Shown here piece by piece: positions 8,254 through 40,665 of a stretch of DNA of 40,928 nt; positions within the stretch are counted from its first letter, which is position 1, and the number at the start of each line of letters is the position of its first letter. The notes below the pieces were generated by a model. The model was not told the origin of the DNA and did no database searches. It saw only the letters and a program-made list of their open reading frames with translations. Source of the DNA: a virus; the IMG/VR virus record IMGVR_UViG_3300025122_000045, positions 1 to 40,928 of that record. One strand, given 5' to 3'. The translations under genes were made by a program, and so were the position numbers.

Positions 8254-8264
8254 AAGGATTTGAG

Positions 8265-8297
8265 ATTGTAAAATTGGAAATAATGCCTTTTTACAAT
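8265..8297. promoter_or_regulatory. 33-bp palindrome, copy 1
   Basis: ATTGTAAAA (8265-8273) and TTTTACAAT (8289-8297) are perfect 9-base arms separated by 15 bases. It lies between the capsid gene and the next structural gene, 23 bases before its GTG start. A further TTTTGTAAAG half-site (8301-8310) runs into the ribosome site. There is no T-tract after the stem. Copies with identical 33-base length lie at 24275, 32432 and 40604. Confidence 0.8.
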
Positions 8298-8320
8298 TTC
8301 TTTTGTAAAGGAGAAGTCCA

Positions 8321-9070
8321 GTGGGACGAGAAAACATTGACGATACAAATGCTCAAAATGTTGTGTTCAAGCAGCAGTTCAGGCTGGAGCCGTTGACGAG
8401 GACTCTTACGGGGGCTCTTACCCTGGTGCAGGAACATCCTCCGTTGATGTATCTGGACCCAGGGGGTGCGGCCAGGGCCGTTACGTTGCCGGCTGAAGCA
8501 AACGGACGTGGATTGTTGTTTATTATCCACAACACTGCAGATGCCGACGAAGACCTGACGGTAAGCGACGATGGTGGAACGGTTATTGCCATCATCGAGC
8601 AGGGGAAATCAGCTTTGCTGACGTGCGACGGAACCACCTGGCTGGCGCAAAATCCGACAGGTGGAAAGGGAATCGTAGCGATTGGCGATGTTGCGGCGTA
8701 CACGCTGCTGCCTGGGAATAGTGGGAAAGTTCACTATATCCCGGACTTGACCGCCGACTTAACGATTACCCTGCCGGCAGAAGACGAAGGACTCGAATAT
8801 GAGTTCATCTATTCGGGAGTTGCTGCGGATGCTCAGGATTGGATTCTCGACAGTGGAAGTAATACCAATTACTTCATTGGTGGAGTGGTCCATCTCGACA
8901 CTGACGGCGATTTGAATGTGTTGGCGGCTCCCGACGGAAACAGCAATTCGAAAGTGACGATTCTCGTGCCGCAGCCGGGTACCTCCGTCAAGATATATTG
9001 CGACGGAACGCTGTGGATTCTCGACGGGCGCGTAACCAGTACGACGATTCCGACGTTCGCTGACCAGTAG
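8321..9070 (+). CDS. Putative capsid decoration or head fibre protein with two beta repeats
   Basis: 249 residues, GTG start with AAAGGAG 7 bases upstream. It contains two related beta-rich units: about 44-108 (ending LTCDGTTWLA) and about 128-240 (ending IYCDGTLWILDG), each with a TLPAE segment near its start (VTLPAEANG and ITLPAEDEG). Its location directly after the capsid gene and G+C-rich codons suggest an abundant virion protein. Similar beta modules occur in fibre proteins, and the protein at 10372-11586 has a comparable unit, so a short head fibre is an alternative. Function is inferred from context. Confidence 0.6.
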   Translation: MGRENIDDTNAQNVVFKQQFRLEPLTRTLTGALTLVQEHPPLMYLDPGGAARAVTLPAEANGRGLLFIIHNTADADEDLTVSDDGGTVIAIIEQGKSALLTCDGTTWLAQNPTGGKGIVAIGDVAAYTLLPGNSGKVHYIPDLTADLTITLPAEDEGLEYEFIYSGVAADAQDWILDSGSNTNYFIGGVVHLDTDGDLNVLAAPDGNSNSKVTILVPQPGTSVKIYCDGTLWILDGRVTSTTIPTFADQ

Positions 9071-9090: not shown

Positions 9091-9169
9091 CAGAGAAAAG
9101 GGAGAAGGAAAGCAATGTTCAACTCCCTCGTGTTGACTGTGTGGAACTTTTCCCTTTTCTCTGTTTTTT
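9091..9169 (+). terminator. Intrinsic terminator or attenuator after the head genes
   Basis: Perfect 13-base arms CAGAGAAAAGGGA (9091-9103) and TCCCTTTTCTCTG (9151-9163) are followed by six T (9164-9169). The loop holds a smaller TCAAC/GTTGA hairpin. The T-tract abuts the ribosome site of the next gene, so some read-through must occur. It would make capsid and decoration mRNA more abundant than connector and tail mRNA. Confidence 0.8.
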
Positions 9170-29388: not shown

Positions 29389-29460
29389 GGAGAGGGGGAA
29401 TACAGGGAGGTACGTAGTTGCGAAATTAATCGCGGCTTCCCTATCCTGCTCCCCCTCTCC
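29389..29460 (-). other. Long leader hairpin before the helicase gene
   Basis: GGAGAGGGGGA (29389-29399) pairs perfectly with TCCCCCTCTCC (29450-29460). Inside it AGGGA/TCCCT and a small GCGA/TCGC stem can also form. It fills the gap between the ssDNA-binding-like gene and the helicase gene, ends 13 bases before the helicase ATG and lacks a T-tract. A processing site or translational control structure is more likely than a terminator. Confidence 0.55.
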
Positions 29461-30843: not shown

Positions 30844-31207
30844 TTTCATTCTCCTCTTGTTTTATCATGTCGTTAAAAATTAACTCTAACTCTCTCCGAA
30901 GAAGGTCGATGGGCAATTCCTCTACCCAATCATATTTTACTTCGTCAGGAAGCAATAAAGAACCATTACCATGCTTTTCGCATAGTCGGACAACAAAACT
31001 CCAAACCGGAGCAGAGGCTTCATAGGAAGCGTCAATATTATGTCTCGCTCCCCACGTTTGGTGGCATTCCGGGCAGTAAAAAACATCGCTGGAATTTGGC
31101 CCGCAAGACATAAATTCGAGTGCGCCTAAATATCTTCGCCCTACATAAAAATGGGTTCTGAAATCTTTTGACGTAAACGAGTACTTGTCGTGGCTAGAAT
31201 GTGTCAA
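30821..31207 (-). CDS. Hypothetical zinc-binding-like protein
   Basis: 128 residues from a TTG start, overlapping both neighbours. A zinc-ribbon-like segment YCPECHQTWG with an earlier CGPN and a later CEKHG lies within residues 34-80. The C-terminal half is helical and acidic. Placement between the Cas4-like nuclease and Sak4-like ATPase suggests a recombination accessory. The start is uncertain because no strong ribosome site precedes it. Confidence 0.6.
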   Translation of the reverse strand: MTHSSHDKYSFTSKDFRTHFYVGRRYLGALEFMSCGPNSSDVFYCPECHQTWGARHNIDASYEASAPVWSFVVRLCEKHGNGSLLLPDEVKYDWVEELPIDLLRRELELIFNDMIKQEENENATATGD

Positions 31208-32156
31208 GTCGAGTCTCGCTCAGGTTAGCCCCTGGAGCTTCGTTAGAATGCAAAGGGTCTTTTTCCAAGGGGTCCCAAATTCTTTCGGGATAGGAACTAT
31301 ACCAATCTTCAGGCTTTTCTCTTTCACAAATCGACGTAGCCCAGCAACCGCCATAGCTAGCGCAGGCGTCGCCAAAGGAATATTCAAATTTCATTTTTTG
31401 AAAACAATCTACTAGGCTTTGAATTTTATTCACCATTTTGTCAGCCCAGCGGTCGATAATAAATTGAGGATAGGTAACTAATTCAAAGATATGTTGATAT
31501 TGAGATACTTGAATAGCTATTCCCCGTACCAACATGGAATTAAGGTTATATCCATATTGTTGCGCTGCCCAGACATAACCCAAGAATTGCCCTCTCATAT
31601 TCCACTGCCCTCCCCATCGCCTTCCAATTGAGGCTGTAGTTTTTTCGTCGGCGGCACATGGTATGCCTGCATACGACCCAATAGCATCACAGCGCCCAGC
31701 ATATAATACTGGGTCGCCGGTAACTGGATGGGCGATGGGGAGAGGAACAGCGAAGGTAAACTCTAAAGAAGGCTCGCCTTTGTCATTTATGTCAATTTCA
31801 AAAGGGTCTTTATCTAGTGGATATTCAAGAAAATAACTATCTAATGCCCCAACGGTATTAACAAAGGTCTTGACATGAGGACGATTATATTTATCGGGAG
31901 GTTCGTAGCCCCCCCAATAGTCCATTAAAGTTCTTACTCCATCAAACAACGATTCTTCTTTTGATTTTTTATGAAACCAGTATGCTCTTCTGGTCGTTTC
32001 GATAGCAGAAGCAAAAGCCCCGCCTGCATGTAAATCAGGCGATTTCGTTGTTGGCCCGCGCCGTAGACAATATTCAATAAAGAATTTCATTTCACAGCCT
32101 GAACAAGCCAACATCGTTGAATCGATTGCTCTAGGAAAAACAGGTTGAATATCCAT
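31194..32156 (-). CDS. Cas4/RecB-type PD-(D/E)XK exonuclease
   Basis: 320 residues. Nuclease motifs are in the usual order: H43 (HAGGAF), D157 (YAGRCDAIG), D170-E171-K172 (ADEKTT) and Q190...Y194 (QFLGY). Cysteines C18/C21/C30 at the N-terminus and C265/C271/C277 at the C-terminus could hold an iron-sulfur cluster as in Cas4 and AddB, though the spacing C-x5-C-x5-C is not the classic one. It probably resects DNA ends for the Sak4-like system. Its last four residues, LDTF, resemble the shared tail on other proteins here. Confidence 0.82.
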   Translation of the reverse strand: MDIQPVFPRAIDSTMLACSGCEMKFFIEYCLRRGPTTKSPDLHAGGAFASAIETTRRAYWFHKKSKEESLFDGVRTLMDYWGGYEPPDKYNRPHVKTFVNTVGALDSYFLEYPLDKDPFEIDINDKGEPSLEFTFAVPLPIAHPVTGDPVLYAGRCDAIGSYAGIPCAADEKTTASIGRRWGGQWNMRGQFLGYVWAAQQYGYNLNSMLVRGIAIQVSQYQHIFELVTYPQFIIDRWADKMVNKIQSLVDCFQKMKFEYSFGDACASYGGCWATSICEREKPEDWYSSYPERIWDPLEKDPLHSNEAPGANLSETRLDTF

Positions 32157-32431: not shown

Positions 32432-32464
32432 ATTGTAAAAAGGAAAAGTTGACCTTTTTACAAT
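32432..32464. promoter_or_regulatory. 33-bp palindrome, copy 3
   Basis: This copy has the longest perfect arms: ATTGTAAAAAGG (32432-32443) and CCTTTTTACAAT (32453-32464), loop of 9. It fills the gap between the 32471 gene stop and the next gene start. Overall length is 33 as in the other copies. Confidence 0.82.
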
Positions 32465-36394: not shown

Positions 36395-36645
36395 CATTCA
36401 TTCCCCATCGCTTCGCGTTTCGCTAGATGCTTCCCCTCCCGACACCATACCCAATACCTCCACTCCATCGGAACAGGCCATACCCGATACCCAAGGTATC
36501 CGCCAGTGTAAAGCATGTCCGATTTAACGCTCTTGGTTAAGTATCGTTTATGCTCTCGGCTAAAAAGCCATATCCTAAGTCTATGCTCCAAGCGCAGAAG
36601 TAAAGGAATATTTTCTTTTGGGTGTTCATTACTCAAGCGTTCCAT
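36394..36645 (-). CDS. Hypothetical Trp/Arg-rich early protein
   Basis: 83 residues with AGGAGG 6 bases before the ATG. It is basic and aromatic (LRLEHRLRIWLF, GYLGYRVWPVPMEWRYWVW). It could be a small nucleic-acid or membrane-peripheral protein. The structured RNA at 36671-36737 lies in its leader, so it is the gene most likely to be controlled by that element. Confidence 0.65.
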   Translation of the reverse strand: MERLSNEHPKENIPLLLRLEHRLRIWLFSREHKRYLTKSVKSDMLYTGGYLGYRVWPVPMEWRYWVWCREGKHLAKREAMGNE

Positions 36646-36670
36646 TTAAAGCCTCCTGGCTGTAATCTCT

Positions 36671-36737
36671 TTCCCAGCCTGGGACCCTCGCGGGTAGGAT
36701 TCCAGTTTCTCTCTGGACAAGCGCCCCAAGCTGGGAA
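36671..36737 (-). ncRNA. Candidate structured RNA: three-way junction with GNRA loop
   Basis: Read on the minus strand, positions 36737-36725 (UUCCCAGCUUGGG) pair with 36683-36671 (CCCAGGCUGGGAA) over 13 pairs including one G-U. Inside are two hairpins: UCCAG/CUGGA with a 7-base AGAGAAA loop (36717-36701) and ACCC/GGGU closed by the GNRA loop GCGA (36695-36684). On the plus strand the G-U becomes a C-A mismatch, so the structure favours the transcribed strand. It ends 25 bases before the ATG of the 36645 gene. It does not match a riboswitch class I know; cis-regulatory leader or small RNA are both possible. Confidence 0.6.
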
Positions 36738-36745
36738 GAATTATG

Positions 36746-36928
36746 TTATTCCTTGAACAACGCAGCGATGAGTTTTGTATCTTGGCACTCTTCGCAAATA
36801 TCCAAAGGTATGACTCGATGTTGTTTTTTAATTGTTACGTTTTGCCATCCCTTAGGTCGCGCTGCCGAACCTTCGGTAACGATAGAACAGATACTACATA
36901 CCCACTGATAAATGTCTTGCCTTGGCAT
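36746..36928 (-). CDS. Small zinc-finger protein (60 aa)
   Basis: The ATG overlaps the preceding stop (TAATG). The product has CSIC (11-14) and CEEC (45-48), a two-knuckle zinc ribbon, with a basic middle. Such small proteins are common in phage early regions and may bind nucleic acid or host factors. Its stop precedes the structured RNA by about 9 bases. Confidence 0.7.
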   Translation of the reverse strand: MPRQDIYQWVCSICSIVTEGSAARPKGWQNVTIKKQHRVIPLDICEECQDTKLIAALFKE

Positions 36929-37125
36929 TAGCTGTCAAGCTCCTCTACATCGTACTCGCGCTGATTCTCCTTCGTTTCGAAGAACACATGATTGTCAGCG
37001 GAGTTGGCTTCGTTGCTGACGATGACATCGGCCTCGGCTTTGGTGTAAGCCTCAAAGACGATGCTAAGCTCCTGCGTCACCACCCTCGTTATCCTTCCCC
37101 GGTATCTTTTCTTCATTCTCAGCAT
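36928..37125 (-). CDS. Small hypothetical protein (65 aa)
   Basis: The start at ATG 37125 has AGGAGG 9 bases upstream; ATG 37134 would be too close. The N-terminus is basic ([14 protein letters not shown]) with a possible beta strand, and the C-terminus is acidic ([10 protein letters not shown]). It overlaps the NrdJ-like gene by 62 bases. Function unknown. Confidence 0.65.
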
Positions 37126-37528
37126 TTGTTTCATCCTCCTGGTGCGTGTGAGACAGGTCTAGCCTGCCAAGGTAAGTGATAGCCAAATCTCGAAAGATAA
37201 GGTCTATCATCGAAGTACACATCTTAATATGTTCGTGACCTTGCACAGGCCCGTCCGGTTCAAAGCGAGTAAATGTAAAAGCGCCCACAAATTTTTCCAA
37301 GGGCACACCATGCTGTAAACCCAATGATACTGCTATAGCAAAACAGTTTAACAGGGAGCGAAGGGCGGCTCCCTGTTTGTGCATATCAATAAAGACTTCA
37401 CCTAAATCCCCGTTTTCATATTCTCCTGTTCTGATATAGAGGGACTGCTGACCGCCAATTTTTACCTTTTGAGTATAGCCGCTGCGTTTGTTTGGAAGCG
37501 TTGCGCGTTCACTATTTTGTGGTGTCAT
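37064..37528 (-). CDS. Stand-alone NrdJ C-terminal (TSCPD-like) domain
   Basis: 154 residues. Residues about 15-125 match the C-terminal domain of class II (B12-dependent) ribonucleotide reductase: [30 protein letters not shown], then [38 protein letters not shown] and YLGRLDL. No catalytic RNR barrel is encoded in the window. Phages often carry this fragment alone; it may modulate host NrdJ or act on its own. The C-terminal 30 residues are charged and specific to this protein. Overlaps both neighbours. Confidence 0.8.
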
Positions 37529-40220: not shown

Positions 40221-40610
40221 TACAATTCCCCGGATATTATCTGATAGTCATTTTTATTGCCCTGATAATCTCAAATATTGCCCTGATGATTTTATTATTA
40301 TCCCTGGTATTCCCTGATATCCTCTGGTTGTTCACCATTATGCCTCCGGTATCTCTAGATTTTACAATGTATGATATAATCCTTAGAGGGGTAGTTGTTC
40401 TTAGAAAAAAAAAAAAAAAAAAAAAATACTACTAACTACTACTCCTGCGCCTTAACAAAACAACCACTACATTCCCCAAAATATATCCCATATCACCGAA
40501 CAACCAGGTAACATCAGATAACACCAGGGCAATAATAATGACTATCAGGGCAATTTTAAAGACTCTTAGGGAACATCAGACAATATAATGAATATCATGG
40601 TGAATTGTAA
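40221..40610. other. Candidate replication origin: inverted arms with iteron-like repeats and A-tract
   Basis: The segment is very AT-rich and non-coding. Four CCCTGAT-like repeats run forward (starting near 40256, 40277, 40299 and 40309) and four run reversed (near 40501-40515, 40521-40537, 40540-40557 and 40561-40577). Both arms end inward with CTGGTTGTTC. Between them lies a run of 22 A (40405-40426) beside ACTACT repeats. This symmetry resembles an iteron origin or a large control region; no DnaA box or initiator gene was recognised. Confidence 0.55.
40241..40548. repeat. 24-base inverted repeat flanking the A-tract
   Basis: The left arm is 40241-40264 and the right arm 40525-40548. The right arm reverse-complemented matches the left at 23 of 24 bases (one T/A difference at the twelfth base); each reads CTGATAGTCATT, then ATTGCCCTG. 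They are 260 bases apart and form the core of a longer, imperfect inverted duplication. Confidence 0.85.
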
Positions 40611-40636
40611 AATGGTGGGATTTTCAAATTTACAAT
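40604..40636. promoter_or_regulatory. 33-bp palindrome, copy 4
   Basis: ATTGTAAAA (40604-40612) and ATTTACAAT (40628-40636): arms with one mismatch, spacer 15, total 33. It shares ATTGTAAAATGGTG with copy 2. It abuts a possible rightward -35 at 40637 and lies at the outer edge of the origin-like region. Single TTTTACAAT half-sites lie at 40360-40368 and 939-947. Confidence 0.75.
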
Positions 40637-40665
40637 TTGCCACTTTCGATACCATGAAATAATCT
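40637..40665 (+). promoter_or_regulatory. Possible rightward promoter beside palindrome copy 4
   Basis: TTGCCA (40637-40642), 17 bases, TAATCT (40660-40665). The -35 is good (5/6), the -10 weak. If used, it would read across the terminal junction to the 185 gene, and palindrome copy 4 would overlap its upstream edge. Confidence 0.35.

Follow-up and report, generated by a model that had tools for sequence, protein, structure and literature searches.

The window, by which we mean the whole 40,928-nt stretch of DNA that was analysed, is a 40.9-kb virus contig that carries a structural operon on its plus strand; the replication and early genes form a module on its minus strand. Microcystis phage Mel-JY34 and Vibrio phage VS-ABTNL-3 encode homologues of the window's core replication genes, similarly ordered and with ~30-40% identity, and most of the early genes between 33 and 40 kb have no relatives in Mel-JY34, in VS-ABTNL-3 or in 37 further related-phage loci. 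Among these early genes, a 100-nt gap (36646-36745) separates two minus-strand ORFs of 60 and 83 amino acids, for which searches of viral contigs and phages found no convincing relatives; two archaeal matches returned by a protein search with the flanking ORFs covered 19 residues and were taken as chance. An in-frame stop codon immediately precedes the downstream ATG, which means that the leader does not encode extra N-terminal residues of the 83-aa ORF. The gap is occupied by a stem-loop that begins 6 nt past the upstream stop codon, finishes 22 nt before the next start, and thus sits between the ribosome sites of the two ORFs, with the AGGAGG of the second just downstream (Table 1). The minus strand at 37064-37528 encodes a TSCPD domain as a protein of its own; among its viral relatives, at least L002 and L003 have TSCPD as the C-terminus of a large ribonucleotide reductase, and no synteny with the window was found for the TSCPD relatives. 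Relatives of the GP88 protein were absent from the viral contigs searched.

Table 1 Features of the early-gene gap and its flanking ORFs.
Feature	Position	Strand	Basis or remark
Upstream ORF, 60 aa, two CxxC motifs	36746-36928	-	Relatives not found
Whole intergenic stem-loop, 72 nt including outer UCU/AGA pairs	36668-36739	-	Full-gap fold, -45.6 kcal/mol
67-nt element, with 14-bp basal stem UCCCAGCUUGGGGC / GUCCCAGGCUGGGA and one flanking U-A pair at the end	36671-36737	-	Basal-stem pairs predicted with P 0.95-1.0
Upper rod: CUUGU/GCGAG helix, asymmetric 10-nt bulge AAUCCUACCC, apical CCAG-AGAGAAA-CUGG hairpin	36687-36721	-	Base-pair probabilities
Small hairpin AGCC-AGGA-GGCU enclosing the Shine-Dalgarno AGGAGG	36650-36661	-	Full-gap fold
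Downstream ORF, 83 aa	36394-36645	-	No relatives among phages and viral contigs

A preliminary description of this DNA had proposed that the leader of the downstream ORF folds into a compact three-way-junction RNA, and the sequence features on which that proposal was built are present. There is a 13-pair closing stem (UUCCCAGCUUGGG / CCCAGGCUGGGAA) in which all pairs but one are Watson-Crick, the exception reading U-G in the transcribed strand and A-C in the opposite one; the two hairpins can be drawn as claimed (UCCAG-AGAGAAA-CUGGA and ACCC-GCGA-GGGU); 25 bases lie between the element and the ATG at 36645; and both GGCUG and CAGCC occur in the sequence. The RNA of the transcribed strand is also structured, as had been claimed: the minus-strand 67-mer (36737-36671) folds at -39.2 kcal/mol with z = -4.6, compared with -30.4 kcal/mol and z = -2.5 for the plus-strand fold of the same 67-mer. 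When both strands of the 41-kb window were scanned for the stability of 68-nt segments, the element ranked first, at -39.0 kcal/mol versus -32.1 kcal/mol for the next. Both the sequence features and a strong stem-loop between two small ORFs are therefore real.

How much weight this stability can bear was gauged with 16 dinucleotide-shuffled copies of the whole window, in which the minimum was -39.6 kcal/mol and 5 of 162,688 windows reached -36 kcal/mol. By stability alone the element is a roughly one-in-sixteen event somewhere in 41 kb, that is, only moderately rare. This frequency of comparable folds, together with the absence of evolutionary evidence in the comparison sequence searched, is what speaks for a chance or neutral stem without function. 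The position of the stem, in a single 100-nt gap that leads straight into a Shine-Dalgarno site, makes chance less likely, and the over-representation of strong stems in comparable gaps of related phages (described below) argues in the same direction, leaving a functionless stem, in our estimate, rather improbable. The element could alternatively be a palindrome that acts at the level of DNA, such as an origin, a recombination or packaging site, or a captured host repeat of the REP or miniature-element kind, in which case the RNA fold would be incidental. A GC content of 61% in the element versus 44% in the window would suit such a DNA-level role, as would its form as an imperfect palindrome whose other strand also folds, less well. 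Set against this, the element is present in a single copy in the window, BLASTN searches of phages and plasmids with either the gap and its flanking genes or the element alone returned nothing meaningful, and, owing to its wobble pairs, the element is 8.8 kcal/mol more stable on the transcribed strand, a bias that is not diagnostic by itself. We consider a DNA-level role unlikely.

The predicted fold differs from the one first drawn. The minimum free energy fold and the centroid fold agree on a single rod: the basal stem is followed by a 1x1 G/G mismatch, the CUUGU/GCGAG helix, the 10-nt bulge and the apical hairpin, so that a near-continuous helix of ~19 bp (14 bp, the 1x1 mismatch and 5 bp) leads into an asymmetric bulge. 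The pair probabilities are 0.99 for the first four CUUGU/GCGAG pairs and 0.91 for the apical ones. In ViennaRNA the three-way junction comes to -34.1 kcal/mol versus -39.2 kcal/mol for the rod, a comparison in which coaxial stacking could recover a few kcal/mol for the junction, and the GCGA loop that had been described as a GNRA tetraloop belongs to a hairpin with P = 0.0005, its GCGAG being paired with CUUGU in the rod. Since ViennaRNA does not count coaxial stacking of flush helices, we grade the junction as disfavoured rather than impossible; on these models it is probably not the actual fold of the element. The suggested switch between GGCUG and CAGCC fares worse: its pairing has P ~1e-10 and would cost 13.5 kcal/mol within the full leader, in which CAGCC instead finds its partner in a local GGCU and closes a 4-bp mini-hairpin around AGGAGG.

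Searches for relatives of the element bore out the earlier statement that it matches no nameable class, in that Rfam gave no match at gathering threshold across the window. Under permissive settings the best Rfam matches to the element were chance hits to microRNA and sRNA models (E 3.7-8.8), and identities as a hairpin, hammerhead, twister or HDV ribozyme were set aside as being without Rfam support; across 15 related-phage loci Rfam reported one tRNA and nothing else. Copies of the element were not found by pattern scans of viral contigs, the 11 contigs returned by one DNA pattern scan being either the antisense of a repeated tail-fibre-like coding region or without the fold, and another scan yielding no hits at all. 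A covariance model built from the element (R1) and run over 668 kb, including the 37 related loci, matched nothing but the element itself and its reverse strand. On this evidence the element does not define a new RNA class; it is a strong orphan intergenic stem-loop, most likely ordinary in kind.

These results bear on whether the stem-loop is a cis-regulatory leader that regulates how the 83-aa ORF is translated by binding a ligand or a protein, adopting the junction when bound and the rod when free. In favour of such a leader, rod and junction are mutually exclusive and lie ~5 kcal/mol apart, and the element is just upstream of AGGAGG. The very low predicted probabilities of the junction hairpin and of the anti-Shine-Dalgarno pairing count against it, as do the failure to find conservation or an Rfam match and the location of the Shine-Dalgarno site, which lies outside the large stem in rod and junction alike. 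Regulation of this kind is thus not a likely explanation, and its most specific version, in which a structured leader RNA, new and restricted to this isolated phage lineage, switches between rod and GNRA three-way junction and so controls the downstream early gene, strikes us as very unlikely indeed.

Termination or attenuation of transcription between early genes would likewise be served by a stable, GC-rich stem between ORFs, and stems followed by a U-run do occur in other gaps of this phage (9091-9163) and of several relatives. The T7 terminators TE and Tphi have a strong intergenic stem like that of the element, which unlike them is without a U-tract: none follows the stem on either the minus strand (GGGAAAGAGAUUACAGCC) or the plus strand (GGGAAGAAUUAUGUUAUU). 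The element is also absent from the list produced by a terminator scan, and we regard termination here as distinctly doubtful.

Two further intergenic stems of ~72 nt occur in the window, at 29389-29460 on the minus strand and at 9091-9163 on the plus strand, and no common sequence core was found among these two and the element. The first (72 nt, 29460-29389) immediately precedes the Shine-Dalgarno site of the helicase gene, whose ATG is at ~29375, and the non-transcribed strand of the stem folds more stably. The second (73 nt) follows the gene at 8321-9070 and has 17-bp arms with one DNA-level mismatch and a 39-nt insert; at its 3′ side stands UUUUUU, then AGGAG. It is likely a terminator or a processing stem, and with its six U residues it indicates that the stems of the window need not all be of one kind. 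Inverted repeats rich in A/T also recur in gaps, with (A)TTGTAAA / TTTACAA(T) as their arms, at 8262-8300, 32432-32464 and 40598-40642, of which that at 32432-32464 resembles a bidirectional terminator.

Strong stem-loops are found in excess in the gaps of related phages, an excess that is modest but significant. In the relatives, segments with z < -3 make up 1.4% of intergenic versus 0.18% of coding segments, and a mean z < -3 was found for 10/139 same-strand gaps (this window's element included) compared with 3/278 coding controls (Fisher p = 0.0014). The latter test was length-matched, selected strand-symmetrically by strand-averaged z, and run after removal of near-duplicate contigs; genes were called with a simple home-made ORF caller that misses some small genes, which would blur rather than create the contrast. 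The sense strand is the more stable in 15/19 strong gaps and also in 8/10 coding controls; as the coding control is biased likewise, we rejected the sense-strand bias as proof of RNA function, and one earlier apparent sense bias arose partly from sense-strand selection.

The sequences of these strong gap stems are unrelated to one another, except for a 73-nt leader common to a cluster of near-identical contigs (L042:4869-4941, L043:6321-6393, L045:3783-3855, L046:1075-1147, L050:2999-3071 and L051:6460-6532), which reaches z -5.2 and combines a long stem with an inner hairpin and a 7-nt bulge. This leader and the gap stems of L052, L033 and L055 are similar to the element in size and stability and, as the element is, are located in same-strand gaps of the module upstream of the homologue of 31194-32156. 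Both the 73-nt leader and the element end in UUGGGGC/GUCCCA; a link between them was not supported, since neither of the covariance models R1 and R2 recovers the other. Elsewhere among the relatives, L034:7113-7192 and L026:33-112 apparently share with each other a structured element of their own (CCCG[CT]AGCATCCA, a stem, then TGTGTG) with differing stem sequences, a possible case of covariation, and the 132-nt gap L029:703-834 has the most extreme fold among the gaps tested, with a sense-strand z of -6.9 to -8.0.

The setting of the element is reminiscent of the RNase III signals of phage T7 (R0.3 to R1.3), which are likewise located between co-directional early genes just upstream of the next ribosome site, and which share with the element a length of ~60-72 nt and a long helix broken by an asymmetric internal loop. 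The R1.1 substrate of T7, for example, derives from the gap between genes 1.0 and 1.1 and is 60 nt long, with an asymmetric internal loop (PMC6121014). Judged by the features of the T7 type, the predicted fold of the element is an irregular duplex, about two helical turns long, that contains an internal loop. The same folding procedure applied to the T7 gaps gives short stems upstream of the next gene, at -17 to -43 kcal/mol for comparable gaps versus -45.6 kcal/mol for the gap of the element, whose basal stem is longer and more stable. The T7 sites also have in common a core, AAGGTC...GGCCTT, whereas the element shares none with T7 or with the other stems of the window.

By analogy with T7, we tentatively favour the interpretation that the element is an intergenic mRNA stem-loop with a processing or stabilising role, because its position, its long interrupted helix and its lack of a U-tract all fit. 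In support of this interpretation, the strongest local fold in the window falls in a 100-nt gap, two more stems of ~72 nt are found in other gaps of this phage, and the gaps of related phages show an excess of strong stems. Counting against it, the stems of the window lack a common core, unlike the T7 sites, neither a homologue nor covariation was found, and the bias in sense-strand stability is not specific to gaps; the U-run behind the stem at 9091-9163, a possible terminator, likewise suggests that the stems may differ in kind. The rod-like stem-loop would be transcribed through as part of a polycistronic early mRNA and would fold in vivo between the two translated ORFs, where it may be recognised as double-stranded RNA, and presumably cut, by RNase III or a similar nuclease; alternatively, the stem may simply shield the 5′ or 3′ end of the neighbouring message. 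Either way, the two ORFs would be processed or stabilised separately, the same job as is done by the intergenic hairpins of T7.

If this role is correct, the stem-loop would be one more example of intergenic mRNA stem-loops that organise early expression, here in a poorly studied phage group whose relatives include Microcystis phage Mel-JY34 and Vibrio phage VS-ABTNL-3. For transcript mapping, the frequency of gap stems across the group offers a mild lead.
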